Below, in pieces: positions 2,694 through 25,237 of a DNA stretch of 64,000 nt. A program made the translations under genes and the position numbers. The first letter of the stretch is position 1; every line of letters starts with the position of its first letter. The DNA comes from an uncultured Lachnospiraceae bacterium (GTDB lineage Bacteria > Bacillota > Clostridia > Lachnospirales > Lachnospiraceae), in NCBI GenBank assembly GCA_902786515.1, contig CADADA010000003.1, positions 1 through 64,000 of the forward strand, read 5' to 3'. Under the pieces are notes generated by a model, which searched no databases, was not told where the DNA came from, and worked only from the letters and a program-made list of their open reading frames with translations.

Positions 2694-3314
2694 ATGAAGA
2701 AAACAATAATTTGCAGTTTGCCATTCAAACAAAATATTCAAAAGGTGTATTACGAAAAGAATAATATATCTTTTGAAGTAGCAGATCATCCTGTTAAATT
2801 TCCGATAAATTCGGTAATAGAAAAGAATGTGACAGATGGTGATGAGCTAAAAATTATTCTTTTAGTAAAACATGATAAAAACAATTATTATGAGGATAAT
2901 AAGCAAATGTTTTTTGATGAGTTGAAAGATTCCATCGGTTCAAGAAATATTGATATTAATACTGAAGAATTGTATACTGAATTTTCCGAGGACAGAGAAG
3001 TTCATGAGAAGTTGCTTGGTGATATTATTGATAAAATTGATGATAACAGTAATATAATTGCTGATATTACCTATGGTCCTAAGGATGTACCTATCTTAAT
3101 TTTTACGGCTTTAAATTTTTGTGAGAAACATTTGGGCTGTAATATTGAGGGAATTGTATATGGTCTGGCACAATTTGGAGACAATAGTATTATAACAGAA
3201 GGAAAAATGTGTGATATGAGTTCCTTGTTCTTTCTAAATTCATTGGCAGACACAGTAGAGTGCAGAGATTCGGAGAAGTCAAGGCAGTTATTAAAAACAC
3301 TTCTTTCATTATAG
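2694..3314 (+). CDS. CARF-like nucleotide-sensing protein
   Basis: A protein of about 206 aa. The start is the ATG at 2694, because the upstream in-frame ATG (2679) is part of the GGAGG ribosome site. The stretch at residues 124-158, DITYGPKDVPILIFTALNF followed by an IEGIVYGL strand, resembles the DIThGFRslP...v.giyYG core of CARF domains in Csx1/Csx2/TM1812-type proteins, which bind cyclic oligoadenylates. No effector domain is attached, so this would be a stand-alone sensor acting on neighbours: the HEPN-like protein upstream or the sigma-like protein 14 bp downstream. No cas genes, CRISPR array or cyclase are visible in the window. The fold is inferred from motif similarity only. Confidence 0.5.
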   Translation: MKKTIICSLPFKQNIQKVYYEKNNISFEVADHPVKFPINSVIEKNVTDGDELKIILLVKHDKNNYYEDNKQMFFDELKDSIGSRNIDINTEELYTEFSEDREVHEKLLGDIIDKIDDNSNIIADITYGPKDVPILIFTALNFCEKHLGCNIEGIVYGLAQFGDNSIITEGKMCDMSSLFFLNSLADTVECRDSEKSRQLLKTLLSL

Positions 3315-6120: not shown

Positions 6121-9100
6121 ATGAAAGAAATAATCTGCCCTAAATGTGGATCATCCAGTGTATATAAAAGTAAAAAGTATAGCGCCTGGATCTGCGAAGA
6201 CTGTAGCAAAAAGTTTACAGAAACAATTGCCACGAACAAAAAGTGGAATGATGGTCTGGAAAGTGCTAATTATTGGGACAATGAGTTTATATTTGTCGCC
6301 CCTGTGTCTTTGGCTATTTCATATCAGAAATTAAAAGAATATGTGGCAGATGGAAACATCGGATGCACTCTGTTTTTAATCAGGGATGTATTTGAACTCA
6401 TGATTAAAATTCCGGTTACCATATTATTTAACGGCGTTCACGATCTTAAAGAAACACACGCTGATTTTGAGAAGGTTCTCACTTCAAATAAACAACTTGA
6501 AAAGCTCTATGATTATTCCATTCAAATGCTTTCAACAGGAAAGTGGTGGGAGTGCGTCCGATTGGCAGCAGCCATAAAAAATGAATTTTGGGAGAATTGG
6601 GCAGAAGATTATGCAGCACAAGCACTATTATTGAAAGATACATGTGCTTATCTTGGCAAGTTATATAAATTGATGTATTTCAGGATTCCAGGAAATCCTA
6701 AAACAAGTATGGTTACTTGGAGAAATAGAGTACTTGGACATAGTTGCCTTGCAGATAACATTCAGGAAAAATATTCTGAAATCCCCTATATTTTGGAAAT
6801 GTTTAAACAGGTTTGTGAATCAAGCGTACTTTTCTATTCGAGGACTTGTTTTTGTGATAGGAATAAGAAGCCTCTTTGGGGAACTAATGCAAATCCTTCT
6901 GAAACTGAAGTATTCATTCAATATAAATGTAATGAAGAGAAGCAAAATATAACACTCCTTATGCATGATTTTCTGGCGGGCTGTGATAATAGTCTTTCGT
7001 GTTTTGATGGCTTTGAAAAAGGAAAAGCGTATTTATTGTCTTATTCAAGCGGTGAAAGATACCGTGATTTCAAACTTTCTGAGTATCTATCCAAACATAG
7101 CGATAGCAGGATAAATAAGTTAATGGTATCCGAGTTATCATCAGAAAATGTTTTCTCTGATAACTTGGAATCCAAAGATATCGAAACATTAGAGGAATTG
7201 TTATCATCGAAGGACGATGTCATTGGTGTGAATTGCTTATATCAGTGGATCTTAGATGCTATTGCAGATAATGACAAAGGAATACTGCTTCTGTCTGCGG
7301 AGCGAGGGCTTGGTAAAAGCACTTTCTGTGCGACGATAGATCAGCTGGATCGCACTGGAGTACAAAAACTGGATGAGGACCTGCTAGAACAATGGTATGA
7401 ACTAGAGAGTGATACAGCGATTCGAGTTTGGCATTTCAATTCGGATTATAGAGGGAGAAAAGATATTTTTATTCCAGGCATACGTGATGCTATGCTCTCA
7501 TTGGAAAGCGGTACGACAATCGGAAGAGGTAGTAGAGGCAATATCTTAAAAGGCAAACTGGAAGTTCAATGGAACAGTCTGCTTACCTGTGATAAAAATC
7601 TTCGGAAGCTCCTTTTCGCAGAATGCTTGAATGATACTGTTTTGGAATATCGGGAACGTACTGATAAGAAGAAATTGCTCTTAGTACTGGACGGTATTGA
7701 TGAGGTGACAGATGTAAAGGAGCTATTCTCATTCCTTCCGGATGTAGATCATCTGGATGAAGGAGTGTACTTAATGCTGTCATGTAGAACAGCATCAGAA
7801 CTTGAGAATAAGCCTGAACTTCTAACTTTGATAGAGAACTTCCGATTTGCAAGTAGATTGCAATTTACAAGGAAATGCTTAGTTCGCGAAAACTCCGGAG
7901 TGGAAAACGTTTCTGAGAATGGTGATTACAATTTTGCGATAGCTGAATACATAAAAGGTATTCTTGCTGAGCAAGGGAAACGTATTTGTACAGATGACAT
8001 ATTAGATATAGCTGAAATGTTTGAGAATCGATTCTCTGCGGTGGCTGCATATAGAGAACTATGCAGGTTAAATCCGATTTTTATAGACTGTGTGGACGGA
8101 AACTTGTTTCAGATGTTTATTACACAGATCGAGCAAAATGCGCCGGTTTCATATCTGCAGAGAGTGAAAGCGATATTGAATACGCTTCTCTGGGCCGACG
8201 AACCGCTGACCATTCAGGAACTGGCATATCTTTCCGGTGAAAGATATGTGTCTTATAGAATGCTAGGTATATTAAATGACTTGCGTGCATTTGTTAGGGT
8301 TTCGAGAAGTAGCCATGGAAACAGATACGAAATTGCGCATTCTCAGTGGAAGGATGCAATAAGAATATGGATACCGTATGGAGATGTGTATTTTCGTCAG
8401 CGCTGCAGCAGGCTGTTGGAAGAATTGGAGCAGTCATTCACTGAAGATAATATAATTGATCTGTTAGATGATAATTATGCTGGTGAACGTTGGGTTTTCA
8501 CGCGCATGTTAAACATCTATTCAAAAAATAAGTATGATTTAATGGAAAACTGGTGGGAGTCTATATGTATCGGCGCTTTTGAGACTATATTTGATACACT
8601 AATCACATTTGTTGATTTGCATGAAGATATTCAGCTATTAACGTCAACTAGGTTTATTGACATATTGAAAGGTATATCATTTGATTATCGAAAAGCGTTA
8701 TCAGATTTTTCTTACGATCCAGAGGGAGTGAGAGGATACAAGTACTATAATAAGAAGAGTAACGAATATGATTTGCTAGAGAAATTGGTGGCTTTTTTGA
8801 GTCGTATTTCGAAGTTAATCATTGACGATTATACTGATTTGGATGGTGATCCAAGTTGTAATCCTGCATTACCGGTTGCAGCAGAATGGCGATTTCACGC
8901 CGGAGAGATTTTAGTGGATTACTCTGTTTTGCGAGGAGAAAATAGTTCATCGAGATCAAAACTGCGAAAGAGAGCACTGGAATTATATGCTCCTTCCATA
9001 GAAACTGCACATTGGTTTGGATTTAATCATGAGGATAATGTTCTTATTGAAGCCTCAATGCGTATGGGGGATATACATATACAAAACAAAGAATACGAAT

Positions 9101-10329
9101 ATGCCTATATGCTTTACGAAAGGGTTATAACCCTTTTGGAAATGAAAAAGAAACTAGCTGTAGATATGCGAATGAAGCTTGCAAAAGCATATATGGAGAT
9201 AGGACGTGTTATTCCATATATTGATGAAAATAATCCCCCAGCATATTACTTGGGAAAGATGACGCCACTCGAATGTTATAATAAAGCATGTGATATGATA
9301 CGGTGTCTTCTGAAGGAAGATTGTAATAATTACGCTTTTTGGAAACTATATAAATCTGTTACATACAGAATCGGAAAGGTTTATTCAAAGGAGCATTTAT
9401 GGGAGGAAACGCTATACTGGTTTACGGAACATCTTGCAAGTATTGAAAAGCTGAATTCCGTAGATAAATATGAGGAGTATACTGCCCATATCTCAGTTGG
9501 AGATACGCATATAGCCATGCATGATGCAGAGCAAGCCGTGATACATTATCTGAATGCTTACCGAATCTGCTGTGATTATAATTTGGATCGTTTTGAAGTT
9601 TTGCAAAAGTTGATTTCATTCCCCACTACTCTTGTGGAAAATAGAAATGCGCTGGAAAAGGAATATGATTCAGTAGTAAAGACGCGAAAAGAATACGGTG
9701 ATGCATATCAGGAAGTTCTTGAAATTTTAAAACATACGGAACCAGACGCAGTGGCGAAAATTCCAAAAGGAAAACTGAAGCTGTTTCATGAACGTCAAAA
9801 TAAGGATCATGGATTTAGAGCAGATCCTACGAAAACACTTGACGAACAGGGGGTAATGAAACTAACTAAAGCAATTCTGGCAATAATTTTTAGAGATTAC
9901 TGGGCATCTGACAAACAAAGAGAAACGATAGAACAACATCAGGATAGGGATCGTATGGAAAATCGTGTAAAGCTTATGGAAGAGGTTATTGACCAGATTT
10001 CTATGGTTAGTAGCAGTAATAAAGCTATTACAAAGATTTCATCACGGGCTTATTGCGAAGTGTTTTGGTTATTAGAGCACCTTCCATTAAGTATTACCGG
10101 GAAGATGCCAGTTGATATCTTGCTGGATATTAAAACAAAGAGAGATAGAAGTTATGTAGTACAGTTCAGTCCTGCTGGAGATAATAAATATTTAGAAGAT
10201 ACATTATACTATATGAGATCATTGCTTGATATGTATGTGCCAGATGCGGAACCACTACTTGTTGATTACAGAAAGAACGTTCCTAGTGACTTTGATTTAA
10301 ACCGTATATTTGATGATGATTTTGAATAA
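6121..10329 (+). CDS. STAND-type P-loop NTPase with N-terminal zinc ribbon and C-terminal helical repeats
   Basis: A 1,402-aa protein. Residues 6-28 form a zinc ribbon (C6-x2-C9, C25-x2-C28). About 60-340 is an unrecognised, mostly helical region that could be the effector. A NACHT/STAND-like ATPase follows: the Walker A is AERGLGKST (393-401) and the Walker B is LVLDGIDE (521-528). A winged-helix-like region lies about 680-750, and long TPR-like helical repeats about 1,000-1,200 could be the sensor. This plan fits Avs-like or other NLR-like antiphage ATPases. A strong ribosome site (AAGGAGG) precedes the ATG. It appears less AT-rich than the flanking genes, which suggests separate acquisition. 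The family is secure; the trigger and output are unknown. Confidence 0.75.
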   Translation: MKEIICPKCGSSSVYKSKKYSAWICEDCSKKFTETIATNKKWNDGLESANYWDNEFIFVAPVSLAISYQKLKEYVADGNIGCTLFLIRDVFELMIKIPVTILFNGVHDLKETHADFEKVLTSNKQLEKLYDYSIQMLSTGKWWECVRLAAAIKNEFWENWAEDYAAQALLLKDTCAYLGKLYKLMYFRIPGNPKTSMVTWRNRVLGHSCLADNIQEKYSEIPYILEMFKQVCESSVLFYSRTCFCDRNKKPLWGTNANPSETEVFIQYKCNEEKQNITLLMHDFLAGCDNSLSCFDGFEKGKAYLLSYSSGERYRDFKLSEYLSKHSDSRINKLMVSELSSENVFSDNLESKDIETLEELLSSKDDVIGVNCLYQWILDAIADNDKGILLLSAERGLGKSTFCATIDQLDRTGVQKLDEDLLEQWYELESDTAIRVWHFNSDYRGRKDIFIPGIRDAMLSLESGTTIGRGSRGNILKGKLEVQWNSLLTCDKNLRKLLFAECLNDTVLEYRERTDKKKLLLVLDGIDEVTDVKELFSFLPDVDHLDEGVYLMLSCRTASELENKPELLTLIENFRFASRLQFTRKCLVRENSGVENVSENGDYNFAIAEYIKGILAEQGKRICTDDILDIAEMFENRFSAVAAYRELCRLNPIFIDCVDGNLFQMFITQIEQNAPVSYLQRVKAILNTLLWADEPLTIQELAYLSGERYVSYRMLGILNDLRAFVRVSRSSHGNRYEIAHSQWKDAIRIWIPYGDVYFRQRCSRLLEELEQSFTEDNIIDLLDDNYAGERWVFTRMLNIYSKNKYDLMENWWESICIGAFETIFDTLITFVDLHEDIQLLTSTRFIDILKGISFDYRKALSDFSYDPEGVRGYKYYNKKSNEYDLLEKLVAFLSRISKLIIDDYTDLDGDPSCNPALPVAAEWRFHAGEILVDYSVLRGENSSSRSKLRKRALELYAPSIETAHWFGFNHEDNVLIEASMRMGDIHIQNKEYEYAYMLYERVITLLEMKKKLAVDMRMKLAKAYMEIGRVIPYIDENNPPAYYLGKMTPLECYNKACDMIRCLLKEDCNNYAFWKLYKSVTYRIGKVYSKEHLWEETLYWFTEHLASIEKLNSVDKYEEYTAHISVGDTHIAMHDAEQAVIHYLNAYRICCDYNLDRFEVLQKLISFPTTLVENRNALEKEYDSVVKTRKEYGDAYQEVLEILKHTEPDAVAKIPKGKLKLFHERQNKDHGFRADPTKTLDEQGVMKLTKAILAIIFRDYWASDKQRETIEQHQDRDRMENRVKLMEEVIDQISMVSSSNKAITKISSRAYCEVFWLLEHLPLSITGKMPVDILLDIKTKRDRSYVVQFSPAGDNKYLEDTLYYMRSLLDMYVPDAEPLLVDYRKNVPSDFDLNRIFDDDFE

Positions 10330-11724: not shown

Positions 11725-11787
11725 GACTACAGAATACAACAAAAAAAGTAAATTAGATATTACCATGCACTGATTGGAGGAATGTAT

Positions 11788-12576
11788 ATGATTAAAGCTA
11801 ATGCGTTAAAAGAATGTTTTGCAACTGACGGTGTAGATACTAAAATGTCAATTTTTAGCCATAATAATCAGAATATTGTTATTGATGGGGTGGATGAAGA
11901 CTGTATTATTCCAACAGGCGTTGAGAATCTCGCATACAAAATGATGATTCACGACAAGTTGATAAGGGAATACATTATTAGCTTAAGGAACAATTATATT
12001 TCAAAGTGTGAGGATTTTAGTTTTTCACTGGAAGGTAAGGCAGATGAAGAAAAGAAGTTGATTATAGATATTTTTCAGAATTTATATGGAATAGTAACTA
12101 TGGTTCATTATTGCCCTCATTGTGAAGTTCTAAAGGGGAAAATAGCATTAACAACAAAAGCACATAATTTTATTCTGGGTCAGTATATGGAAATAGCTAT
12201 TTATAAGAGTGTTAAGGATATTCTTTTGGATTTATCTAATAAATACAACAAGAAATTCAATATATATAGGAATGTGAAGGTATCTACAAAAAATGATGGA
12301 AAGATAAAAAATGAGTTTGACTTAGTTATTGAATCAAGTGAGAAAATTGTTTATGTAATTGAAGTGAAGACAGGATATTCATTCAGAGATTTCAATAGAT
12401 ATACCGAAGTTGGAAAGCGGTATGGTATTGTTCCGGACAGATTTTTACTTGTAGATAATTGTTTAACATTAGAGCACTGTGAAACAATAGAATATTTCTG
12501 TGAGTATTTAGTAAGTAATTTAGAAAATAATAGTTTTTCAGAGAAGCTTATTACTATGATTGAAAAAGATATTTAA
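11788..12576 (+). CDS. PD-(D/E)XK nuclease-like protein with a conserved N-terminal domain
   Basis: A 262-aa protein. The start is the ATG at 11788 (MIKANALKE), seven bases after GGAGG. The truncated paralogue at 16184 also begins MIKAHALR, which supports this over the ATG at 11782. Residues 1-105 are the shared domain. About residues 170-205 show the nuclease core: an Asp in NEFDLVIE, then VIEVKTG (E-x-K), similar in pattern to the C-terminal nucleases of DUF1887/Card1-like proteins. A CHC/CPHC-like cysteine cluster (HYCPHC) lies between them. It probably cleaves DNA or RNA. It has a 15-bp gap to the next gene. Confidence 0.6.
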   Translation: MIKANALKECFATDGVDTKMSIFSHNNQNIVIDGVDEDCIIPTGVENLAYKMMIHDKLIREYIISLRNNYISKCEDFSFSLEGKADEEKKLIIDIFQNLYGIVTMVHYCPHCEVLKGKIALTTKAHNFILGQYMEIAIYKSVKDILLDLSNKYNKKFNIYRNVKVSTKNDGKIKNEFDLVIESSEKIVYVIEVKTGYSFRDFNRYTEVGKRYGIVPDRFLLVDNCLTLEHCETIEYFCEYLVSNLENNSFSEKLITMIEKDI

Positions 12577-12591
12577 GGGGAGGAGATTGCA

Positions 12592-13623
12592 ATGATTACA
12601 TACACAATTTTTAATGATGCAAAATATTATTCACACTGTGAGAATGAATACAATGAAGTTATGTCAATTCCTGCAAAGCCAGCATTTGCAATGATGGAAG
12701 GAGAAAGTATTGTTCCAACATTACTTCCTAAGGAGTATTCAACAGTAGAGGAGATTTTAAAGCGAATTGATGAAATTGATTTGGCTATAGTTGAAGAAAT
12801 TGCACGCAGTAAGTACCTTAACTCATTGCAAATATTTGAGTTTCTTAGACTAAGAGGGTATTCGGTTAAAAGAGATAATCTTAGAAGAAAGATTCTGAAA
12901 TTGATGCGTTACAGGATTATAAAGGAAAATATGATTAAGTGTTCTGGTTCAGAAAATGGATTACGTTATTATGAAATTGAACTCAAAGGATATTTAATTG
13001 CTTTGAATAAAGGGGTATTTTTCCATGCAGGAAATAGTTTTATGACATATAAAAAGAAACTTGAAACCGGGAAGCATGATTCACCATTAGATGTTAAGCG
13101 AGTTTTAGCTGGGAATATGATAGTAAGTAATGCATTAAAAAATGGAATAAAGATGGAACGATTCGGAATAATGGAGACTTTCTGTGTTGAAAATATGGAT
13201 GGAAAGGTAAAAGATGGGGCTATTTTTCGTACGGCTGCAACTATTAAAATTGATGATGAAAGTGTACTGGCGTATGAGGTTGTTCGTGATAATGAGGACG
13301 GATACATAAAGTTGGCAGATAAGATTGAAAGATACTATAAACTTTTACATAACGAAAAATATTTATATTCTAATCACCATTCAGATAATGTATTACCCCA
13401 GATGGTTATTTGTGGGGAATCAGAGGAACATAATAAGAAAATTATGGAGTTTTTAATGGAAGAAAATTTATGGAGAGAGGAAGATACACTTTTATTCACT
13501 GAAGATTTGCTGAATATTCGAGATTCAGCTAAATCAATATATGAGTTTAGGAATAATGAGAAAATATGGTATAAATTACCACAAAAAAATGATTTCAATA
13601 ATGGAACTAAGAGAACTGCATAA
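12592..13623 (+). CDS. Winged-helix protein with nuclease-like fold (replication-relaxation-like)
   Basis: A 343-aa protein with a strong GGGGAGGAG ribosome site. Residues about 60-135 form a winged helix (IVEEIARSKYLNSLQIFEFLRLRGY then RRKILKLMRYRII). The C-terminal half, with DGAIFRTAATIKI then YEVVRDNEDGYIKLADKIERYYKLL, follows the layout of replication-relaxation/MobC-like proteins: an acidic strand followed by a helix with KxxxYY. Such proteins accompany mobilisation and replication modules of mobile elements. The family assignment is tentative; the winged helix is clearer than the nuclease-like part. Confidence 0.45.
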   Translation: MITYTIFNDAKYYSHCENEYNEVMSIPAKPAFAMMEGESIVPTLLPKEYSTVEEILKRIDEIDLAIVEEIARSKYLNSLQIFEFLRLRGYSVKRDNLRRKILKLMRYRIIKENMIKCSGSENGLRYYEIELKGYLIALNKGVFFHAGNSFMTYKKKLETGKHDSPLDVKRVLAGNMIVSNALKNGIKMERFGIMETFCVENMDGKVKDGAIFRTAATIKIDDESVLAYEVVRDNEDGYIKLADKIERYYKLLHNEKYLYSNHHSDNVLPQMVICGESEEHNKKIMEFLMEENLWREEDTLLFTEDLLNIRDSAKSIYEFRNNEKIWYKLPQKNDFNNGTKRTA

Positions 13624-13643
13624 ATGATTGGAGATGAAAAAAT

Positions 13644-14234
13644 ATGGTTGTTAAAGAAAAAAGTGCAAGAGGGATAGATACAATCCCATTATCATCTGTG
13701 TTTATTGAGAATCGTGACATATTTTTGAAAGGTGAAATATCGACAGAAGTTGCAGATGAATTCTGTGAACAATTTATTTACTTACTTCGAAGAGGAAATG
13801 ATCCCATACGAGTATGGATAAGTAGTTATGGCGGTTCAGTTATCGACGGATTACGTATTTATGATTTGATTTCTTCGGTAAAAAATATCAAAGTTTATAC
13901 GATAGCATATGGAGCAGCATATTCTATGGCAGGGTTATTGCTTGCTGCTGGTACAAAAGGATGTAGATTAATGTTACCTCATACTAGATTAATGTTACAC
14001 CCAGCAACTTTTGTTGGTGGGTGTAGTGGGAAACTAAGTGATATTCGTGCTAAATCAAATATGTTAGAAGAATATGAAGAGATAATAAATCAGATTCTGT
14101 CTAAACATAGTGGACTAAGTGTTAAGAAAATTATTGAGGATAATTCATATGATCATTTTTATACTGCAGAGGAAGCGATAAAAAATGGTTACTGTGATCG
14201 TATAGCTTGTATAGATGATTTAGTGAAAGGGTGA
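13644..14234 (+). CDS. ClpP-like serine protease
   Basis: A 196-aa protein of normal ClpP length. The catalytic triad is readable: Ser94 in YGAAYSMAG, His119 in LMLHP and Asp170 in SYDHF, each at the expected family position. The oxyanion strand (SSYGGSV, 60-66) is also present. It differs clearly from housekeeping ClpP, with no typical propeptide and an unusual N-terminus, so it is an accessory paralogue. ClpP needs an AAA+ partner. The only AAA+ unfoldase nearby is at 17505, which lacks an obvious IGF-type ClpP loop. Its stop overlaps the ribosome site of the VirD4-like gene, so the two are co-translated. Confidence 0.8.
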   Translation: MVVKEKSARGIDTIPLSSVFIENRDIFLKGEISTEVADEFCEQFIYLLRRGNDPIRVWISSYGGSVIDGLRIYDLISSVKNIKVYTIAYGAAYSMAGLLLAAGTKGCRLMLPHTRLMLHPATFVGGCSGKLSDIRAKSNMLEEYEEIINQILSKHSGLSVKKIIEDNSYDHFYTAEEAIKNGYCDRIACIDDLVKG

Positions 14235-14239
14235 AGATA

Positions 14240-15490
14240 ATGGAAGAATTAGTATTAGGAAAAACTACAAGATTTCCAATAGAGAATAAAATGGGTATAA
14301 ATGCACATGTTTGTGTATTTGGAGGGTCAGGTAGTGGAAAAAGCCATTCGATTGTTAGACCAAATATTTTGAATTTTTCCTCAGCGGGAAGTTCAATGAT
14401 AATTTCAGATCCAAAGGGTAGTTTAGAAAAAGAGTTTAAGGATTATTTAAAAACAAAGGGATACAAGATTTATTCGATTAATCTTATTGAGCCGGAAAAG
14501 AGCTCATGCACTTATAATCCTTTTGATTATATATCAAAGGAAATTGACTTTATTAAACTTGCTCATAGAATTATTTATTCTGATTCTTTGTCAAGGACGT
14601 GTAAGAATCAAGATCCTTACTGGAATAGGATGGCAGAGGCACTTCTTGCAGGGCTGCTAGAACTGACAATGTGCGTTGAGAAAGAAGGAGATGAAACACT
14701 TGACAGAGTAATCTATTATACTTCACATCTTTCTGCTAATGGACTAGGTGAGACGAATGATATTTTGGATAATTTCGCTGAAAAAAGAAAAGATAGTTTG
14801 GTTGCAAAAAACTGGATAAAAATCAAAAGTGTTATGCCAGCAGAAAAGACTTTTTCATGCATTGTTTCTTCTGTTCAAGAGCATCTTGCCAGATATGAAA
14901 GTGAGGAAATGACAAAATTTTTTAATAAATCAGAGAGGATATGTTTCGAAGATTTTGCCAAAGAGAAAAGTGTATTGTTTTTGAAAATATCAGATACAGA
15001 TGATACATATTACGATTTTGCAAATATTATTTATGGACAGGCGATTGATTCTATCTCGATGTATGCAGATAGAAATATAGATGGAAAATGCAGAATTCCT
15101 GTTCGATTTATATTGGATGACTTTGCAAGTAATGTATGGATTGATTCTTTTCCTAAGATCATTTCTACTTCACGAGCAAGAAACATTTCATTTATGATTA
15201 TATGCCAATCAGTTCAACAGTTGAGAATGGGATATCAGGATTCTGCACAGACAATTATAAGCAATTCAGATAACTTAGTATTAATGGGAACTAATGATGT
15301 TGAAACAGCTAGAGAGTTTAGTATCAGACTTGACATTCCGGTATATGATGTTTTGACACAAAAAAGAGGTGATATATATATTTTTAGGGCTGGAGAAAAG
15401 CCAATCGAGGATGAGAGATATGATTATAGAGAACATGAATTATATGGTTTGTTGAAAAAAAATGCAAAAGATGAAAGAGAAGAGTGTTAA
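14240..15490 (+). CDS. VirD4/TraG-like coupling ATPase
   Basis: A 416-aa protein. The ATG at 14240 is preferred to the GTG at 14231, which overlaps the ribosome site. The Walker A is GGSGSGKS (28-35), followed by SMIISDPKGSL, the classic DPKGE-like signature of VirD4/TraG. The Walker B is RFILDDFAS. A later helix carries the QSVQQL stretch typical of coupling proteins. No N-terminal transmembrane segments are present and the protein is short, so it is a soluble VirD4-like ATPase. No other type IV secretion genes, relaxase or VirB4 are seen in the window. It may act as a DNA or protein pump within the island system. Confidence 0.75.
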   Translation: MEELVLGKTTRFPIENKMGINAHVCVFGGSGSGKSHSIVRPNILNFSSAGSSMIISDPKGSLEKEFKDYLKTKGYKIYSINLIEPEKSSCTYNPFDYISKEIDFIKLAHRIIYSDSLSRTCKNQDPYWNRMAEALLAGLLELTMCVEKEGDETLDRVIYYTSHLSANGLGETNDILDNFAEKRKDSLVAKNWIKIKSVMPAEKTFSCIVSSVQEHLARYESEEMTKFFNKSERICFEDFAKEKSVLFLKISDTDDTYYDFANIIYGQAIDSISMYADRNIDGKCRIPVRFILDDFASNVWIDSFPKIISTSRARNISFMIICQSVQQLRMGYQDSAQTIISNSDNLVLMGTNDVETAREFSIRLDIPVYDVLTQKRGDIYIFRAGEKPIEDERYDYREHELYGLLKKNAKDEREEC

Positions 15491-16183: not shown

Positions 16184-16552
16184 ATGATTAAAGCACACGC
16201 ATTAAGACTTGTATCTTCAGATGAAGTTACTGCAAATGATACTTCTGAATTATCTTGTCTGATCGATAATAATCAAAACATGATAATTGAATCTTTCATG
16301 ACTAATGAGCATATTCCAACTGCTATCTCAGGACTTGATATTAGAATGATGAAACATGATGCAAGTATTAGAGATATCATCAACGAACTTAGAATTAGTT
16401 ATGTATCAAAGAAGTCAGACTTTCATATTTCACTAGCAGGAAAAAGCAAAGCTGAAAAAGACATAATCATATCCCTTCTCCAGGATATTCTTAAGAAACA
16501 TTTTTTTTTCGATACGAGTTCGAATAAATCAGTAAATTTTAGTACCATATGA
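16184..16552 (+). pseudogene. Truncated paralogue of the 11788 nuclease (N-terminal domain only)
   Basis: A 122-codon frame with a good ribosome site (AGGAGGAAAAG). Residues 1-105 clearly align with the N-terminal domain of the protein at 11788: MIKA.AL, NNQN..I, IPT....L...M..HD..IR, LR..YVSK..DF..SL.GK...EK. Similarity stops at LLQDILKK, where the reading enters a T9 tract and then unrelated codons. The nuclease half is missing. It is either a remnant of a second copy or a stand-alone domain. Confidence 0.65.
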
Positions 16553-16721
16553 TTGTGAGATAGATGAGTATCCACAGAGAATTTGTTGAAGAGAGGTGGT
16601 GATATAGCGTGCACAGTTTTGTAAGAAGTAAAGAGAGGTGGTGGTGAGAAAAATTTATTGTTTGGACGGTGTTAATTGTGTAATTGGAGGATTATTTAAT
16701 ATTAATATTGGAGGAATATTT

Positions 16722-17216
16722 ATGGGTAAGATGATCAAGAATGCAAAGAGTAATGGTTTTGATGTTATGCCAAAGGGTACTTTCAGAGGTGGAGAGCAGC
16801 AGGACACTGAGACAATGCCGAAGGGCACTTTCAGAGGTGGAGAACAGCAGGATATCGAGACAATGCCAAAGGGCACCTTCAGAGGTGGAGAACAGCAGGA
16901 CACTGAGACAATGCCGAAGGGCACTTTCAGAGGTGGAGAACAGCAGGATATCGAGACAATGCCAAAGGGCACTTTCAGAGGCGGAGAGCAGCAAGATACC
17001 GAGACAATGCCAAAGGGTACTTTCAGAGGCGGAGAACAAGGAATGTCAGGTGCATACATACCTAAGAGAACTGGAGGCACAAATAATATCTCTGTTAAAC
17101 GAGTCAGCACACCTAATGTTGTCAAAGCAAACTCGCCTATTGTTACTGTAAAAGCTGTAGAAAGTGGTGATAAAGAAGTATGCAAGTTACCGAGAGGTAC
17201 ATTTAGGGCGGGATAG
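16722..17216 (+). CDS. Protein of tandem MPKGTFRGG repeats, candidate substrate of the E1/JAMM enzyme
   Basis: A 164-aa protein. The start is the ATG at 16722 after GGAGGA; an upstream GTG at 16638 would extend it but lacks conserved features. From residue 16 there are five full 16-aa units, MPKGTFRGGEQQD(T/I)ET, and a sixth ending MPKGTFRGGEQG. A 45-residue Val/Ser/Thr-rich stretch then leads to a last degenerate unit at the very C-terminus (LPRGTFRAG). The motif [ML]P[KR]GTFR[GA]G thus occurs seven times. The protein is soluble and probably disordered. The repeated RGG recalls the diglycine ends that E1 enzymes activate and JAMM proteases cut, and the E1-JAMM gene lies three genes downstream. 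A substrate, scaffold or peptide precursor role is inference. No homologue is known to me. Confidence 0.65.
   Translation: MGKMIKNAKSNGFDVMPKGTFRGGEQQDTETMPKGTFRGGEQQDIETMPKGTFRGGEQQDTETMPKGTFRGGEQQDIETMPKGTFRGGEQQDTETMPKGTFRGGEQGMSGAYIPKRTGGTNNISVKRVSTPNVVKANSPIVTVKAVESGDKEVCKLPRGTFRAG
16767..17042 (+). repeat. 48-bp tandem repeat, 5.75 units
   Basis: Units start at 16767, 16815, 16863, 16911, 16959 and 17007. Units 2 and 4 are identical, and the T/I variant at position 14 alternates T-I-T-I-T. The array therefore grew by duplication of a two-unit (96-bp) block. Confidence 0.95.
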
Positions 17217-17255
17217 ATTTAATGAATAGAATGTTTTTATGAGAGGAGATTAGTT

Positions 17256-17489
17256 ATGGAAGGCGTTATCGGTTTAGTAACAGTTGTATTAATACTGGCA
17301 TATATTGTTTTGGCTATATGGGTTATATGTAAGCGTAGAACTATCGGTGGTTCTGTAGGAGCTTCAGTCGGATTTGCATGCGGCGGACTTGTTATTATTC
17401 CGATTGCCGAGGCTATAGCAACATTTGTTTGCTGGGCTGTTGTAATTGGTATAGTACTGTGCATTATTGGAGCTGTCTTTGGCGGATGA
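17256..17489 (+). CDS. Small membrane protein with C-terminal Gly-Gly
   Basis: A 77-aa protein with a GAGAGGAG ribosome site. There are two long hydrophobic segments, about residues 5-25 and 35-75, separated by a basic loop (CKRRT) and rich in small residues. It ends GAVFGG. It lies between the repeat protein and the AAA+ gene in the same run. It could anchor the system in the membrane. The diglycine end is notable beside an E1/JAMM gene, but Gly is frequent in this protein and the match may be chance. Confidence 0.6.
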   Translation: MEGVIGLVTVVLILAYIVLAIWVICKRRTIGGSVGASVGFACGGLVIIPIAEAIATFVCWAVVIGIVLCIIGAVFGG

Positions 17490-17504
17490 TGAGGAGGTAA
17501 TAGT

Positions 17505-18851
17505 ATGAGGAAATTTTCCCAGTCTACAAAAGCGGATTATGAAGAACTTGATATGATTTTGTCCGATGGACAGCTCCATATTTTCAATAATAGAGAACTT
17601 CCATCGGGGTGTAATCCTAGAAAAACTCGAATTGGCTTCGAGAAAGATGGGGATATTTATACACTTTATGTGGACACTGGAGTGGAAACAAGTGTTAACA
17701 ATGAGGACTTTGTTCTTCTGCTAAAAAATGGAGAATTAAAATTTGTTGGGATGGATGATTTAATGTCTTTTTTTACTTCAACTAAGATTTTGTTTGAAGA
17801 CATTGATACATCAGACGACAAAGACAGTAGTGAACAAAGTAGCGAATCAGAGCATGGGGTAATATCAACTACAAGTGTAGAGAAAATTTGCACCGATCAT
17901 GCTGTTGTAGATCGACAAAAACTGGAAGAAATAAACAAGGAGCGTAATCAAATCAAAGAAGTATGGCCTGAGAGTATATCTAGTGCTTTAAAAAAACAGA
18001 TATATGGACAAGACAGAGCAATTGATGCACTTGCTGAAGGCATTGCAACTAAATATATGAGAAACTGTGAAAAGGTATATGTTGCACTATTACTAGGACC
18101 TCCAGCTGCTGGAAAAACAGAAACTGGAAAGCTGTTACCAGAAATTTTATCTGAATTGTATGGAAGAGACTATGGCTTTATCAAAATTGACTGTAACACA
18201 TATAAACGAGAGCATACTATACATAGTATTCTTGGGGCTCCTCCAAGTTATGTAGGAAGTGGGAAACCAACATTGTTAGATCCGATACGAAAGAATCCAT
18301 ATCATGTAGTTCTGTTTGATGAAATAGAGAAGGCTCATGAAGATTTGCTAGTAGCATTAATGGAAGCATTAGATACTGGTTTCCTGTCTATGGCAGACAA
18401 TTCACCTAAGATAGATATGAATAAATGTATTGTCTTGTTCACTTCGAATATTCCGATAGATATGGAAGTATACAATTGTGCATCTGAATATGAAAAGAAT
18501 GAAATGTGTAAGGATGTATTTACAAAACACTGTGGTCGCCCTGAAGTAAGCCGTCGAATCCGTGACTTTATGGTATTCAATCCTGTTTCCGATGATGCAA
18601 AAGTAGATATTATTATAAAGTTTTCGAAACGTGTATTAGCTGATTATGGGGCAGAACTATTTCACATTGATGAAAACCTGATGTCTGATTTCTTAAAATT
18701 CAGAACAAAATATGGCGCATCTGAAATCGGGAATTATGTGGAGAGATCGATAAGCCGAGCGATAATCAAATCTCGAAATAGAAATATTGTTGCAGGTAAG
18801 AAAATATATATGAAGGGCGTTCCTGAAGATATAGTGCTTGAAATGGTATGA
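17505..18851 (+). CDS. ClpB-type AAA+ ATPase with a novel N-terminal domain
   Basis: A 448-aa protein. Residues 1-100 form a domain (DGQLHIFNN.ELP...C then RIGFE) shared with the separate protein at 20868. An acidic Ser/Asp linker (102-125) follows. The single AAA+ module resembles the second ring of ClpA/B: QIYGQDRAIDAL, Walker A GPPAAGKT (198-205), SYVGSG pore-type loop, Walker B VVLFDE (268-273), sensor VLFTSN and a C-terminal small domain (TKYGASEIGNYVERSISRAI). It probably unfolds or remodels proteins, perhaps feeding the ClpP-like or HExxH protease or removing modified proteins. It lies 25 bp before the JAMM-E1 gene. Confidence 0.8.
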   Translation: MRKFSQSTKADYEELDMILSDGQLHIFNNRELPSGCNPRKTRIGFEKDGDIYTLYVDTGVETSVNNEDFVLLLKNGELKFVGMDDLMSFFTSTKILFEDIDTSDDKDSSEQSSESEHGVISTTSVEKICTDHAVVDRQKLEEINKERNQIKEVWPESISSALKKQIYGQDRAIDALAEGIATKYMRNCEKVYVALLLGPPAAGKTETGKLLPEILSELYGRDYGFIKIDCNTYKREHTIHSILGAPPSYVGSGKPTLLDPIRKNPYHVVLFDEIEKAHEDLLVALMEALDTGFLSMADNSPKIDMNKCIVLFTSNIPIDMEVYNCASEYEKNEMCKDVFTKHCGRPEVSRRIRDFMVFNPVSDDAKVDIIIKFSKRVLADYGAELFHIDENLMSDFLKFRTKYGASEIGNYVERSISRAIIKSRNRNIVAGKKIYMKGVPEDIVLEMV

Positions 18852-18876
18852 GGGTGAGGGATTGGAGTGAATAAAT

Positions 18877-20724
18877 ATGTATATTGATAGTTTATTTTCA
18901 ATGGGTATTGATTACTTGATAAAGGGAATACACAGCATAATGGGGATTGATAAGGAGGAAACAGATATGTATGTGAAGAAAGATATCTTGAAATCTGGTG
19001 TATTTAATGGAGTAGCAAATACTACGGTATGCATTTCCGAAAACGTGTTAGATGAGTTTCGTGCTACGGTAGGTAAACATCGTCCGGAAACTGGTGGTAT
19101 GCTAGCATGCTGCAGTGATTTAAATAAAATTGATACATGGAGATTTGACCAGAAGTCTGTTAACACGTCAGCCTCTTATTCTTATGATGTAGACGAAATG
19201 AGTTTGCAGTTTAAGCAGTGGAAAGAAAAAGGTGTTCGAAGCGTAGGATTTGTTCATTCACATCCAGCAACATATAAACAACCATCTTACGATGATATAG
19301 CAACTGCTCGCGCCCTAATGAAGTTTTTTAAAAATGATTTTTTCTATTTGCCTATTATAATTAGCGATAGGAAAGGTTTTTTTACAATGTATTTTTTTGT
19401 GGTTAGACAAGTTGGGTTACATCTAAATGTTAATTTGGACTATGTTCAGAAAGCGACAGCTGATGGATATAAAATGGTTCCATTTAGGGCCTGGGAGGAA
19501 AACTACTCTATCAGAGAAGTTGAGTCTTATTACAAGCGTGTTAATGGAGAAACTGATGAGGCATATCATAATACTCAGCATGTAGTTAATTATGGTAGAG
19601 AAGTACAATCGGTTATTAAAAAAACAATGGCTTCTATTCAGCCAATTAGTATGGCAAATCATTATCAGATGAACAAGGGGGCATATGCGTTAGCTGTTAA
19701 TGGTGGAAATGGTGTTAATTATCCTATTACACAATTTGAAAATGGAGCAGTGAAGATGAAAGATGAAATCAGAACAACAAGTGAATATTTCAAGAGATTG
19801 GAAGGTGTCTATCCGACTAAGGTTTTAGATAAGGTTGTAATTTGTGTTGGTACCGGTGGAGCTAGAACAGTTTTAGAAAATATGGCAAGAAACGGATTCT
19901 GTAATTATATTTTAATAGACGGAGATAAGATTTCTCCTTCTAACATTGCAACCCAAGGAGTGTTTATTTCAGAAATGGGAAAGTGGAAAACAGAGGCTAT
20001 AAGATCAAGTATACTAGACATAAATCCTAATGCAAAGGTTATCTGCGTGAACAGATTTCTAGATAATGAATTCTCAGATGAAGAGTTCGAGGTATGCCTT
20101 AAAAACTTCCGAGGAAAAAGACCGACAGATTATTTAGTATTAGGCTGTTGTGATACATTTAATGGAAATAAGCGTAGTTCAGAATTGAGTCTTAAATTTG
20201 GCCTTCCATATATTGGTGCAGGAATGTATCAGCAGGGATTAGCAGCAGAAGTGATTTTTACATATCCAGGAGTAACACCATCATGTCCAAGATGTATGTT
20301 AAAGAGTCGTTATGAAGCATACGAAGATGGATATAAAAATGATGTAACATCCGCAGGATGCCCAAGTTTTGCAACAGAGCGTTTAAATACGTTAATTGGA
20401 TTTATTAGTATTATGATGCTTATGTACAAAGAAGCACCTAATAGTCCATACAATAGAATGCTTGATGAGGTTAAAGATCGTAATTTTGTCTGGGTAAGAA
20501 TGTCTCCTTATCTTAGCAGTTCAGATTTGGGAATAGGTCTGTTTGATCGAGTATTAGGCACTCAGGAAACTTCAAGGTATACCTTTTTTGACGAAACCTT
20601 ATGGATTCCACAACATCCAGATTCCCCAGAACATGGAGAAGAAACATGTAAGCTTTGTGGAGGTGTAGGCGACTTGCGAAAATTAAAATATAAATGGAAT
20701 GATACACGTAAAATTAATGGTTAA
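18877..20724 (+). CDS. JAMM isopeptidase fused to E1/ThiF-like activating enzyme
   Basis: A 615-aa protein. Residues about 50-190 are a JAB/JAMM metalloprotease: Glu71 in RPETGG, then HSHPATYKQPSYDD (His127, His129, Ser137, Asp140), all zinc and catalytic positions intact. About 320-600 is a ThiF/E1 fold: VVICVGTGGART nucleotide loop, LIDGD, a GCCDTFNG stretch with candidate catalytic Cys, and zinc pairs CPRC and CKLC. The G-x-G-G-x-G loop is slightly altered (GTGGAR). The start is ambiguous: the ATG at 18967 follows a perfect TAAGGAGGA and would remove 30 residues without harming a domain. JAMM-E1 fusions belong to bacterial ubiquitin-like or peptide-tag systems: E1 adenylates a C-terminal Gly, and JAMM processes or removes the tag. 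Confidence 0.85.
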   Translation: MYIDSLFSMGIDYLIKGIHSIMGIDKEETDMYVKKDILKSGVFNGVANTTVCISENVLDEFRATVGKHRPETGGMLACCSDLNKIDTWRFDQKSVNTSASYSYDVDEMSLQFKQWKEKGVRSVGFVHSHPATYKQPSYDDIATARALMKFFKNDFFYLPIIISDRKGFFTMYFFVVRQVGLHLNVNLDYVQKATADGYKMVPFRAWEENYSIREVESYYKRVNGETDEAYHNTQHVVNYGREVQSVIKKTMASIQPISMANHYQMNKGAYALAVNGGNGVNYPITQFENGAVKMKDEIRTTSEYFKRLEGVYPTKVLDKVVICVGTGGARTVLENMARNGFCNYILIDGDKISPSNIATQGVFISEMGKWKTEAIRSSILDINPNAKVICVNRFLDNEFSDEEFEVCLKNFRGKRPTDYLVLGCCDTFNGNKRSSELSLKFGLPYIGAGMYQQGLAAEVIFTYPGVTPSCPRCMLKSRYEAYEDGYKNDVTSAGCPSFATERLNTLIGFISIMMLMYKEAPNSPYNRMLDEVKDRNFVWVRMSPYLSSSDLGIGLFDRVLGTQETSRYTFFDETLWIPQHPDSPEHGEETCKLCGGVGDLRKLKYKWNDTRKING

Positions 20725-20867: not shown

Positions 20868-21179
20868 ATGAGAGAATTTATTGAGGGAAATGATAATCAG
20901 TTTAGTGATTTAAAAAGGCGGCTTCAGGACGGTTTGTTACACGTGTATAAGAACTGTGAATTGCCAGCATGCTGCAGTAAAAGAAGTTGCCGTATAGGAT
21001 TTGAAATGGATAATAATGCGTATGTTATGTTGATTGACTTAGGGATAACGTGTTCGAAATCAAAAGGAGGAATTTCATTAATTCAATTTAAGCAGTTATT
21101 GTCAGATGGACAATTTATATTTATAGACTTTAATGATTTGAAAGTCTTTTTGAAATCCTTAGGCTTTCTTTATAAATAG
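20868..21179 (+). CDS. Stand-alone copy of the AAA+ N-terminal domain
   Basis: A 103-aa protein with a GGGGGAGGG ribosome site. It aligns with residues 10-100 of the AAA+ protein at 17505: (S/Q)DG.LH(I/V)(F/Y)(N/K)N.ELP..C, then RIGFE.D...Y.L.(V/I)D.G, and a closing LLSDGQF.F...DL..F. It lacks the ATPase. A free copy of a partner domain suggests an adaptor, a competitor, or a shared binding module in the complex. It is not recognised as any named family. Confidence 0.65.
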   Translation: MREFIEGNDNQFSDLKRRLQDGLLHVYKNCELPACCSKRSCRIGFEMDNNAYVMLIDLGITCSKSKGGISLIQFKQLLSDGQFIFIDFNDLKVFLKSLGFLYK

Positions 21180-21190
21180 TGAGGTGTTTT

Positions 21191-21664
21191 ATGGAAGGTA
21201 CATATGAATACATGTGGATAATAATTGGAAGTATACTCTTGGTTGCGTTAATAAAAGTAATCTATCAGATATATAAAAACAAAGTAGGGGAACGTAGCAC
21301 ATATAGACCTGTACAAACTCCGACAGCTAATTCAAATCGCCAGATATCAACAGGTATAAGAGAATTTGGACCGGTTAACTATTATGCGAATGCAAGACAT
21401 AATCAAAAAGATAGATGGTTTCAGTTTATGTATCGTGAGGTAAATGGCGAATGGTTAGCCTACATACTAAGAATGCCAAGTCTTAATGGAAGAGATGGAG
21501 ATTTGCATTTGACTCATAGATACAAAAATGAGAATACCTATTGGATTTGCTATGATCCACAGCCTAGAAGTTTGGAAGGCATTCAGAGCGTTAGTCGTGC
21601 GTGGGCAGATCGTGAATTAGAGTATATAAGTACGGGAGTACCATTTGAAGAACAACGTTGGTGA
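21191..21664 (+). CDS. Membrane-anchored protein, possible divergent E2-like domain
   Basis: A 157-aa protein. The start is the ATG at 21191, after GAGGTG. One transmembrane helix (about 8-26) is followed by a basic, polar linker and a soluble domain (about 60-157). The latter has NGEWLAYILRMP, HLTHRYKNENTYWICYDPQ, then SRAWADREL. The His...ICYDP pattern with a lone Cys followed by a Trp-containing helix loosely resembles prokaryotic E2-like proteins, and an E2 is the expected partner of the JAMM-E1 protein. This is inference from pattern and context only; it could equally be an unrelated accessory protein. Confidence 0.45.
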   Translation: MEGTYEYMWIIIGSILLVALIKVIYQIYKNKVGERSTYRPVQTPTANSNRQISTGIREFGPVNYYANARHNQKDRWFQFMYREVNGEWLAYILRMPSLNGRDGDLHLTHRYKNENTYWICYDPQPRSLEGIQSVSRAWADRELEYISTGVPFEEQRW

Positions 21665-22750: not shown

Positions 22751-25237
22751 ATGGACTATATGAGAAAAAAATACATAGAAATGCAGAAGTTGGCAGAAAA
22801 AATAATTGCTATAAAAAAGGGGGGATGTATGGATGATATATCATCATCAGATATTTATTTAGATAATAACTCTTATATTCCCTCTATTTCAAAATGGTTT
22901 CGCCTAAAGGGATTTAGAATGAACTTGGATCGTGAATCTACTATGGATCACTTGGATACGGCTGTAAATAAGTGGATTCGTTCATCAACAGGGACAGGCA
23001 GTGATGCAGCTTATGTAATTAGTTGCAATGCAGGAAATATGTCCTTTTTATATGGTTCAAATAATGATGTTGTAATGAGTTCATTTCGCTCTAATGTTTC
23101 TGAGTGCGATATTTGCAAAGTTACACCTAATCATAATGGATTTAGTTATAACGGAGTATTCACAGGTACTTTTTCTGCTAATGGTCTTGCAGACTCCCTG
23201 ATTGCCGCTAATATTAGGGATTACTATATTGCTTGTATTTTTACGCCTGTATCAGACAGTGAAATACATAAACTGTTAGATACAAACAGGGTGCATCGTA
23301 ATATTTTGGAAGAGTATAAAACATATCAAAGGGTTTATGGAAATCAGAGTAAGAGAATAGAAAATGTTTCTCTGCCAGTAGTTAATCAAGCTTTAGAAGT
23401 CTTAAAAGAGGAGATGGAATATATTGAGGAAAATATAGGAAAAGGGTTTGTCAGAGCAGTTATCAGATTTGGATCGGATTCAGAAGATAATTATAGATTA
23501 CTCTCATCTATTATTAGTGAATCTTTTAATTTTGAAAGAAGAAATGGTTTCGAACCAGTGCGTGGTTTTCGATTAAGCAACATGAATGATAACATGGATA
23601 GTATTTTGGCAGTACCTTATGTCTGCGTCAGAAATAAGGGCTTTTCTGGAAATATTCATACTCTTACATTGCAAAGTAGTAAAAATATAGGGACATTTTG
23701 TATTCCGGCTCTATCTTCAAGCAAGGGGCTTTACATCAGAAATTATAATGTTGATGAAGATTCTATAGATGATTTTCCATTAATAGAGATGCCAAATGGC
23801 GAAAAAATATTGTTAGGCAAATCGTCACATAATGATGAATGCGCAGGTATTCCATATGAAAAGTTATGTCAGCATAGTTTCGTAACAGGTTCAACTGGCT
23901 CGGGAAAAACGACGACGGTAAAAAAAATTCTGTGTGACGCATATAAAAAGAATATTCCGTTTGTAGTTATCGAAGCAGCTAAAAAAGAATACTTTACACT
24001 TATGTCATGCATTCCTGAATTACAGATTTACACTGCTGGAACAGATGGAAGAAAGCTTACTTTTAATCCATTGCAACCAGAAGATGGAGTTCTCATAGAA
24101 AATCATGTCGCTGCAGTTGTACGTGCACTATTAGCTTGCACGGGTGGTGAGCATCCTATACCAGAAGCTTTTAATGGATTGCTTAAACAGACATATAAAG
24201 ATTTTGGGTGGGAATACGGACAGCTGTCATATACAGATGAGTATAAACCTTTTCCTACATTTAAGGATGTTTTTGCCAATGTAGATAAGTATATAGCTAA
24301 TCATGCACATTATGGCACAGAGGTAAAACAAAATTTAACTGCTGCGCTATCATTACGAACGGAAACGATGTATGACGGTGCATTAGGTAATTTGTTTGCT
24401 AATAATTGTGGTTTGCAGTCTAAGGAGCTATTGGAGGCACCATGTGTCATTGAACTGTCCGATTTTTCTGAAGAATCAGTAGCTTTTTTAATGAATATAT
24501 TGCTGTTCAAGTTTCAGTGTTATCTGTCGCATCAACCAGAAACATCGGAATTACGAAGAATTATAGCTGTTGAAGAGGCGCATAATGTATTTAGAAAAAC
24601 AAGTTTAGAAGATACGGGAAGAGCATTAAGCAATAATTATTTTGATAAGATGTTAGCCGAAATCAGAAGTTCTGGAACCGGATTGATAATCTCCGATCAA
24701 CGACCTGGATTGCTGAGTGAGGCAGTTATGGCAAACACCGCAGTTAAAGTTATCCATGGTCTTTCAGAATATGAAGATAGAGAGTTGGTAGGTTTGGCTG
24801 CAAATTTGTCTTCTTTCCAAATCAAAAGGTTAAGTGAACTAAAAGCAGGTGAAGGACTAATAGCTATAAGAGGCATTCATGGTGTTCAACATGTAATTGT
24901 TGATATGATAGAGGATTCACGTAAATATAATTCGTCATGTCATATTTGTTCGAATAGATTTCGTTGCAAAAAAACTGCGGTTGAGAATATGCTGAATGGA
25001 ATGGATTTAGAGATTATAAAGTATCATGTGACTAATATAATGGCATCTCCATACAACCCTAGAATATTAGAAAGTAATATTACGGATATGCTAAGGGCAC
25101 TAAATATTGTAGCAACATCTGGTACAAAACTCTGTTTTTTAGGAGAGGTGCTTAATAGATATGGAGATGCGTCTTTAAGTGAACAAAGGGTTATAACACA
25201 AACGTTTACAGATTATTTGGGAGGGAAGCGCCTATGA
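22751..25237 (+). CDS. HerA/DUF87-type hexameric ATPase
   Basis: An 828-aa protein. The C-terminal half (about 365-730) is a HerA-FtsK family ATPase: Walker A GSTGSGKT (380-387), VIEAAKKEY, FNPLQPEDG, Walker B IIAVEEAHNVF, then EIRSSGTGLIISDQRPGLLS and the arginine-finger region. A zinc cluster CHICSNRFRCKK comes after it. The N-terminal 350 residues are unrecognised and include an unusual Ser/Asn-rich start. HerA ATPases translocate DNA or protein and often pair with nucleases (HerA-NurA, HerA-Sir2, HerA-DUF4297) in defence. Here the nuclease at 11788 and the JAMM-E1 gene are the possible partners. Its stop overlaps the next start (ATGA). Confidence 0.8.
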   Translation: MDYMRKKYIEMQKLAEKIIAIKKGGCMDDISSSDIYLDNNSYIPSISKWFRLKGFRMNLDRESTMDHLDTAVNKWIRSSTGTGSDAAYVISCNAGNMSFLYGSNNDVVMSSFRSNVSECDICKVTPNHNGFSYNGVFTGTFSANGLADSLIAANIRDYYIACIFTPVSDSEIHKLLDTNRVHRNILEEYKTYQRVYGNQSKRIENVSLPVVNQALEVLKEEMEYIEENIGKGFVRAVIRFGSDSEDNYRLLSSIISESFNFERRNGFEPVRGFRLSNMNDNMDSILAVPYVCVRNKGFSGNIHTLTLQSSKNIGTFCIPALSSSKGLYIRNYNVDEDSIDDFPLIEMPNGEKILLGKSSHNDECAGIPYEKLCQHSFVTGSTGSGKTTTVKKILCDAYKKNIPFVVIEAAKKEYFTLMSCIPELQIYTAGTDGRKLTFNPLQPEDGVLIENHVAAVVRALLACTGGEHPIPEAFNGLLKQTYKDFGWEYGQLSYTDEYKPFPTFKDVFANVDKYIANHAHYGTEVKQNLTAALSLRTETMYDGALGNLFANNCGLQSKELLEAPCVIELSDFSEESVAFLMNILLFKFQCYLSHQPETSELRRIIAVEEAHNVFRKTSLEDTGRALSNNYFDKMLAEIRSSGTGLIISDQRPGLLSEAVMANTAVKVIHGLSEYEDRELVGLAANLSSFQIKRLSELKAGEGLIAIRGIHGVQHVIVDMIEDSRKYNSSCHICSNRFRCKKTAVENMLNGMDLEIIKYHVTNIMASPYNPRILESNITDMLRALNIVATSGTKLCFLGEVLNRYGDASLSEQRVITQTFTDYLGGKRL

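Follow-up and report, generated by a model that had tools for sequence, protein, structure and literature searches.

To our knowledge, E1-type protein tagging uses a folded β-grasp modifier in all cases known so far. The system nearest to the locus described here is the type 6e operon, predicted to encode a polyUbl protein with 1–3 β-grasp domains of 70–75 amino acids, an inactive E2/RWD protein and a JAB domain fused to the N terminus of an E1 (Iyer et al. 2006, PMC1779556). The window analysed here, a 64,000-nucleotide stretch from an uncultured Lachnospiraceae bacterium, likewise encodes a JAB (JAMM) domain N-terminal to an E1 domain and a tandem-repeat candidate modifier (Table 1), and at most related loci a small gene, here for a protein with an HxxH and cysteine pattern (HxxH-C), lies between the repeat gene and that of the fusion. 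Unlike in type 6e operons, the repeat units are linear peptides of 11–16 residues, the sandwiched protein keeps its cysteine and matches no E2 model, and every locus also encodes a Clp-type AAA+ protein with its own N-terminal domain (NTD).

Type II CBASS, 6A-MBL, Bil and Bub also encode E1 and peptidase activities together, and the NCBIfam 6A-MBL cap2_3 model gives a weak match (55.7 bits; cut-off, 320), but no β-grasp modifier and no recognisable E2 is encoded here and the gene set is another one. An E1-type enzyme adjoining a very short peptide gene is shared with MccB–MccA and with ThiF-like RiPP enzymes, from which the JAMM fusion, HxxH-C and the AAA+ unfoldase set the locus apart; unlike MccB–MccA, it has neither a C-terminal Asn nor an exporter. 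The Pup–proteasome system resembles our working model in joining a small unfolded modifier to an AAA+ partner, whereas no Pup ligase-type gene is among the common genes here, and an E1-type enzyme would carry out activation and a JAMM enzyme cleavage. Within open-access papers, which did not extend to those on Bub, no account of the motif or of the module was found. Judged by sequence, the repeat, HxxH-C, JAMM–E1 and AAA+ genes may quite possibly constitute one undescribed module, in which a peptide polyprotein would be the substrate of JAMM–E1, be conjugated and be handled by the AAA+ protein.

Table 1. Features of the module and its surroundings in the window
Feature	Position	Strand	Basis
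ClpP peptidase upstream of module, possible AAA+ partner	13644..14234	+	PF00574 1.8e-42
Ribosome-binding site GGAGG of repeat gene	16710..16714	+	7 nt 5' of ATG
Repeat protein, 164 aa	16722..17216	+	Seven [ML]P[KR]GTFR[GA]G copies
Hydrophobic protein, 77 aa, ends FGG, within operon	17256..17489	+	No Pfam or NCBIfam match; not found at other loci
NTD-AAA+, Clp D2-type motor with new N-terminal domain of ~100 aa	17505..18851	+	PF07724 1.5e-24, ClpA 5e-36; homologue at all eight other loci
JAMM–E1 fusion	18877..20724	+	PF14464 1.3e-9, PF00899 2.8e-14, both above Pfam cut-offs
Stand-alone copy of AAA+ N-terminal domain	20868..21179	+	Aligned; blastp to NTDs of L039, L037, L025
HxxH...YxC protein, N-terminal hydrophobic segment; possible minimal E2-like	21179..21664	+	Alignment; homologue at all eight other loci
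HerA-like ATPase downstream, module membership uncertain	22751..25237	+	Similar ATPases follow module at L038, L039

The repeat protein of the window contains six copies of MPKGTFRGG, starting at residues 16, 32, 48, 64, 80 and 96 with a period of 16 residues (motif cores at 16767, 16815, 16863, 16911, 16959 and 17007), and a seventh copy, LPRGTFRAG, that starts at residue 156 and forms the final nine residues (17187–17213). The preliminary description, which had noted seven motifs in a 164-residue protein and, three genes on, a JAMM–E1 fusion with intact JAMM residues, is borne out on both points, the last motif being C-terminal and the residues of the fusion (18877–20724) being confirmed by alignment. 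Further upstream, at 12592–15490, a helix-turn-helix-like gene, ClpP and a T4SS coupling-type ATPase (PF02534 1.1e-42) follow one another in what we read as a mobile-element or defence block. Positions 16184–16552 resemble a shortened copy of the N-terminal part of a Card1-like nuclease-related protein at 11782–12576, and 6121–10329 encode a 1402-residue protein showing features of a zinc ribbon, a STAND-like NTPase and TPRs.

The JAMM–E1 fusion is rare. One besides that of the window was found in 397 Lachnospiraceae genomes and none in 371 genomes of the window's class; others are present in Massiliimalia massiliensis (Oscillospiraceae, two loci), in Pontiellaceae bacterium B12227, in three more genomes of the order of the latter and in a further genome from the same phylum sample. 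Lachnospiraceae and Massiliimalia belong to Bacillota, Pontiellaceae to Kiritimatiellota. A contig scan with one sequence found nothing and an alignment-based scan gave three loci; a tenth, truncated copy lies on an IMG/VR contig, and plasmids and phages gave weak E1 matches or none. A Bradyrhizobium match was set aside, its E1 and JAMM being encoded by separate genes. Two of the nine loci, L024 and L026, are copies of one element with about 86% identity, so that the set amounts to approximately eight independent loci.

Comparison of open frames showed exactly four families common to 9/9 loci: the repeat peptide, HxxH-C, JAMM–E1 and NTD-AAA+. The preliminary description had proposed a search for co-occurrence of the repeat protein and the fusion; the two occur together at all nine loci in two phyla, and, far from lying mainly in genomes without the fusion, the clear matches to the repeats in Kiritimatiellales come only from JAMM–E1 genomes. 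When 394 Lachnospiraceae genomes were queried with the repeat, no further repeat protein came up. Equally constant, and beyond that description, are the NTD-AAA+ and HxxH-C (21179–21664) partners, and its failure to see a β-grasp protein extends to the common families, which include no β-grasp, other repeat or Ubl gene. The usual gene order is peptide, HxxH-C, JAMM–E1, AAA+; the window instead has its AAA+ gene ahead of that of JAMM–E1, with HxxH-C and its N-terminal hydrophobic segment downstream, and at L050 a tandem HxxH-C gene comes after the AAA+ gene.

At the eight other loci the peptides are encoded by small, unannotated genes a short way upstream of JAMM–E1. They have no match to known families in Pfam or NCBIfam and share no N-terminal sequence that could serve as a conserved leader. 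Across all nine loci they measure 27–164 residues, with 1–7 copies of [LIVM]PxG[TGVI]F, nearly always in tandem, in units of 11–16 residues and with variable spacing: MKAEKWEYLVPVKNVVACG(DDELPEGGFRG)x4 at L025, MKTMKLEF(GGESVPSGTFR)x5 at L050, four VPPGTFH/IPAGTFH copies with GEEDA between them at L037, LPAGTFCGGDEIPAGTFH at L039, VPAGFFSGGRDHVEAGTFHA at L038, a single motif copy in SLPPGTFRNS at L040, and LPVGIFNGGREGQELPSGVFC at L024 and L026. The window protein matches those of L050 and L025 in blastp (1.5e-13 and 3e-6); the shortest peptides, whose length is insufficient for blastp, were identified from motif and position. Just upstream of JAMM–E1 the nine stretches hold 27 copies of the motif, all of them on the coding strand, against a single copy among 176,640 further bases of these loci; its C-terminal form is present in 9/9 upstream stretches and once in the background. 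Since the pattern was defined from these same positions, the constancy of Gly and Phe partly follows from that definition, which does not apply to the enrichment.

In all nine peptides the last copy closes the chain, 1–3 residues past the Phe, with the endings TFR, TFH, TFHA, GFRG, TFRNS, VFC or TFRAG. Internal copies in the relatives are followed by HGE, RGD, CGG, SGG or NGG, and GG is found after internal copies only, at no locus after the last. Because the endings vary and GG is confined to internal copies, the conserved core is PxG-x-F rather than RGG, and the cleavage after RGG suggested by the preliminary description was dropped. Between copies of one gene the codon differences, summed over pairs, are almost all synonymous (synonymous to non-synonymous 58:0 at L050, 39:0 at L025, 16:0 at L037 and 36:6 in the window, where the non-synonymous ones are Thr/Ile exchanges in the spacer only). 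Selection thus acts on the peptide sequence of every copy, and these codon counts point to purifying selection on the repeats.

A strong hairpin lies between the stop codon of the peptide gene and the next gene in 8/9 loci (folding z −2.9 to −6.6 relative to mononucleotide shuffles), the window being the exception. Genes for peptide substrates are often arranged with a hairpin directly 3', and here it would yield peptide in excess over enzyme. Leader-peptide attenuation is an unlikely explanation, since up to seven copies are conserved at the protein level.

The fusion consists of an N-terminal Prok-JAB domain followed by an E1/ThiF domain, and in the window its probable start is at 18967, an ATG with its own GGAGG at which the homologues begin. 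The JAMM residues E71, H127, H129, S137 and D140 and the four zinc cysteines of the E1 (two CxxC pairs) are kept in 8/8 aligned sequences, and the adenylation features (nucleotide-binding GxGG; conserved D, N, Q, K and D) are intact in all of them. No catalytic cysteine is conserved in the E1 crossover loop of these eight sequences, the zinc ligands being the only invariant cysteines; the loop has instead an invariant Thr-Ser, within VTS in most, which makes a cysteine thioester on the E1 unlikely. Profile searches with the fusion match the structures of MccB and PaaA. Pairwise identity is 30–55% in most pairs, and the linkage of the module is therefore old.

HxxH-C is a family of ~100 residues with the pattern HSxH...YxC, whose cysteine and histidines are kept in the canonical copies of all loci. 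The cysteine follows the histidine by about ten residues, as in E2 active sites, a likeness of pattern that does not by itself prove homology. The predicted model (pLDDT 70) has four strands and one helix, and its weak structural matches in VIA-align, which extend along the entire model, repeatedly include E2 enzymes: Ube2T (Z 3.8, r.m.s.d. 4.0, 82 residues aligned), UbcH5B (Z 3.6, 3.7, 83) and Ube2G2 (Z 3.2, 4.1, 84), values of Z below 4 that may reflect merely a common arrangement. With no match to a known family, no E2 profile or other relevant match in Pfam and nothing significant in Foldseek (E at least 0.4), we do not claim it as a proven E2. At L038 the canonical copy is accompanied by additional ones (1812–2153, 2537–2815 and 2831–3253) in which the Cys or His has been lost, and one half of the tandem gene at L050 is degenerate.

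The NTD of the AAA+ protein (model pLDDT 81) has no match to a known family, no significant Foldseek match and no clear structural match. It was rejected as a β-grasp or E2 domain, which it does not match; low E-values traced to 16 residues within designed armadillo repeats. At several loci it carries an [LM]PxG[CSA]-like segment that resembles the peptide motif, possibly by mimicry or else by coincidence.

What the NTD goes with is indicated by the two elements of Massiliimalia massiliensis (L024, 11816–17571, and L040, on the reverse strand), which are 97% identical over 5,756 bases. This stretch starts at the NTD/motor boundary within the AAA+ gene; upstream of it the two have no DNA similarity, HxxH-C, JAMM–E1 and the NTD are 44%, 41% and about 35% identical, respectively, and the peptides differ. 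Peptide, HxxH-C, JAMM–E1 and NTD have been exchanged as a block on a constant motor, a natural swap, and the NTD therefore belongs with the peptide and its enzymes. The strongest indication that the AAA+ protein reads something specific to the peptide and enzyme set comes from this exchange. The IGL/IGF loop is the ClpP-docking site of ClpA and ClpX; IGF is at the expected position in the clostridial members L024, L026 and L040, and the loop is absent from the AAA+ proteins of the window and L025. The ClpP gene of the window has no match at the eight other loci and was not retained as a core part. As the AAA+ protein of the window lacks the docking loop and the other loci lack a ClpP gene, the link to degradation is weak, and degradation of targets is only a possibility.

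Given the universal linkage, the conserved motif and the purifying selection, the repeat protein is a well-supported candidate for the substrate of JAMM–E1. The polyprotein of tags that the preliminary description proposed is, with universal co-occurrence, still the best reading, shorn of RGG as the cut site. The repeat protein would be a polyprotein of short linear peptides, cut by the JAMM domain at PxG-x-F, most likely after the Gly to leave ...PxG-COOH, because Pro, Gly and Phe are constant and the tail after the Gly varies in sequence and length, as do those of ubiquitin-like precursors. A cut one residue beyond the Phe may be an alternative, as it fits the natural C termini of some loci. 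Since some of the peptides end in a residue other than Gly, trimming would have to precede use by the E1 domain, which would then adenylate the new C terminus. Without a conserved E1 cysteine and with the invariant Thr-Ser, the peptide would pass to another nucleophile, plausibly the invariant cysteine of HxxH-C, which would serve as a minimal E2-like carrier and hand the peptide on to target proteins, conjugation to proteins being its most likely purpose. The AAA+ protein, through its NTD, would recognise the tag, the tagged protein or JAMM–E1 and then unfold the target. Taken as a whole, tagging by unfolded polyprotein peptides of ~11–16 residues, cut and activated by JAMM–E1, then joined to proteins and recognised by a Clp-type unfoldase of their own, is a possibility that we put forward with reserve.

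The main rival, itself unlikely, is a RiPP-like product: the repeat gene would be a multi-core precursor from which the JAMM domain frees the cores, and an MccB/PaaA-like E1 would modify their C termini to give a free signal or toxin. A small precursor gene with a 3' hairpin adjoining a ThiF-like enzyme, as well as the profile matches to MccB and PaaA, are as this would predict, and several RiPPs are made by ThiF-like enzymes (PMC12250964). However, no transporter or other tailoring enzyme is among the genes common to the nine loci, no leader is conserved, the review of ThiF-dependent RiPPs does not mention JAMM/JAB (PMC12250964), and a Clp-type unfoldase whose NTD is exchanged alongside the peptide is left unexplained. 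It is also improbable that the PxGTF copies serve as a multivalent motif bound by the NTD or JAMM–E1 in a scaffold that is neither cut nor conjugated. Such a role would suit a short linear motif of variable spacing and number (1–7 copies), and the similar [LM]PxG segment in the NTD of some loci; yet the last copy always lies 1–3 residues from the C terminus, as for a processed or activated end, and the peptidase and the adenylase would have no substrate.

Ubl sulfur carriers use a JAMM enzyme with a ThiF/MoeB-type E1, and a trimmed peptide could by analogy be converted by the E1 to a C-terminal thiocarboxylate that donates sulfur to a metabolite. This is very unlikely here, as neither a sulfurtransferase nor a metabolic enzyme is among the genes common to the nine loci, and neither tandem short peptides nor an AAA+ motor would have a role. 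Chance proximity of a low-complexity repeat protein to JAMM–E1, for which only the general abundance of repeat proteins speaks, is in practice refuted by the occurrence at 9/9 loci in two phyla, the C-terminal motif and the synonymous-only divergence.

The conserved PxG-x-F motif and the four-gene operon make the idea of a peptide substrate directly testable. If tagging by linear peptides is true, these would be a third kind of protein tag beside β-grasp modifiers and Pup, and could offer a compact, genetically encoded tagging tool. It would also mean that E1 machinery can run on linear peptides, which would bear on the origin of ubiquitin systems.
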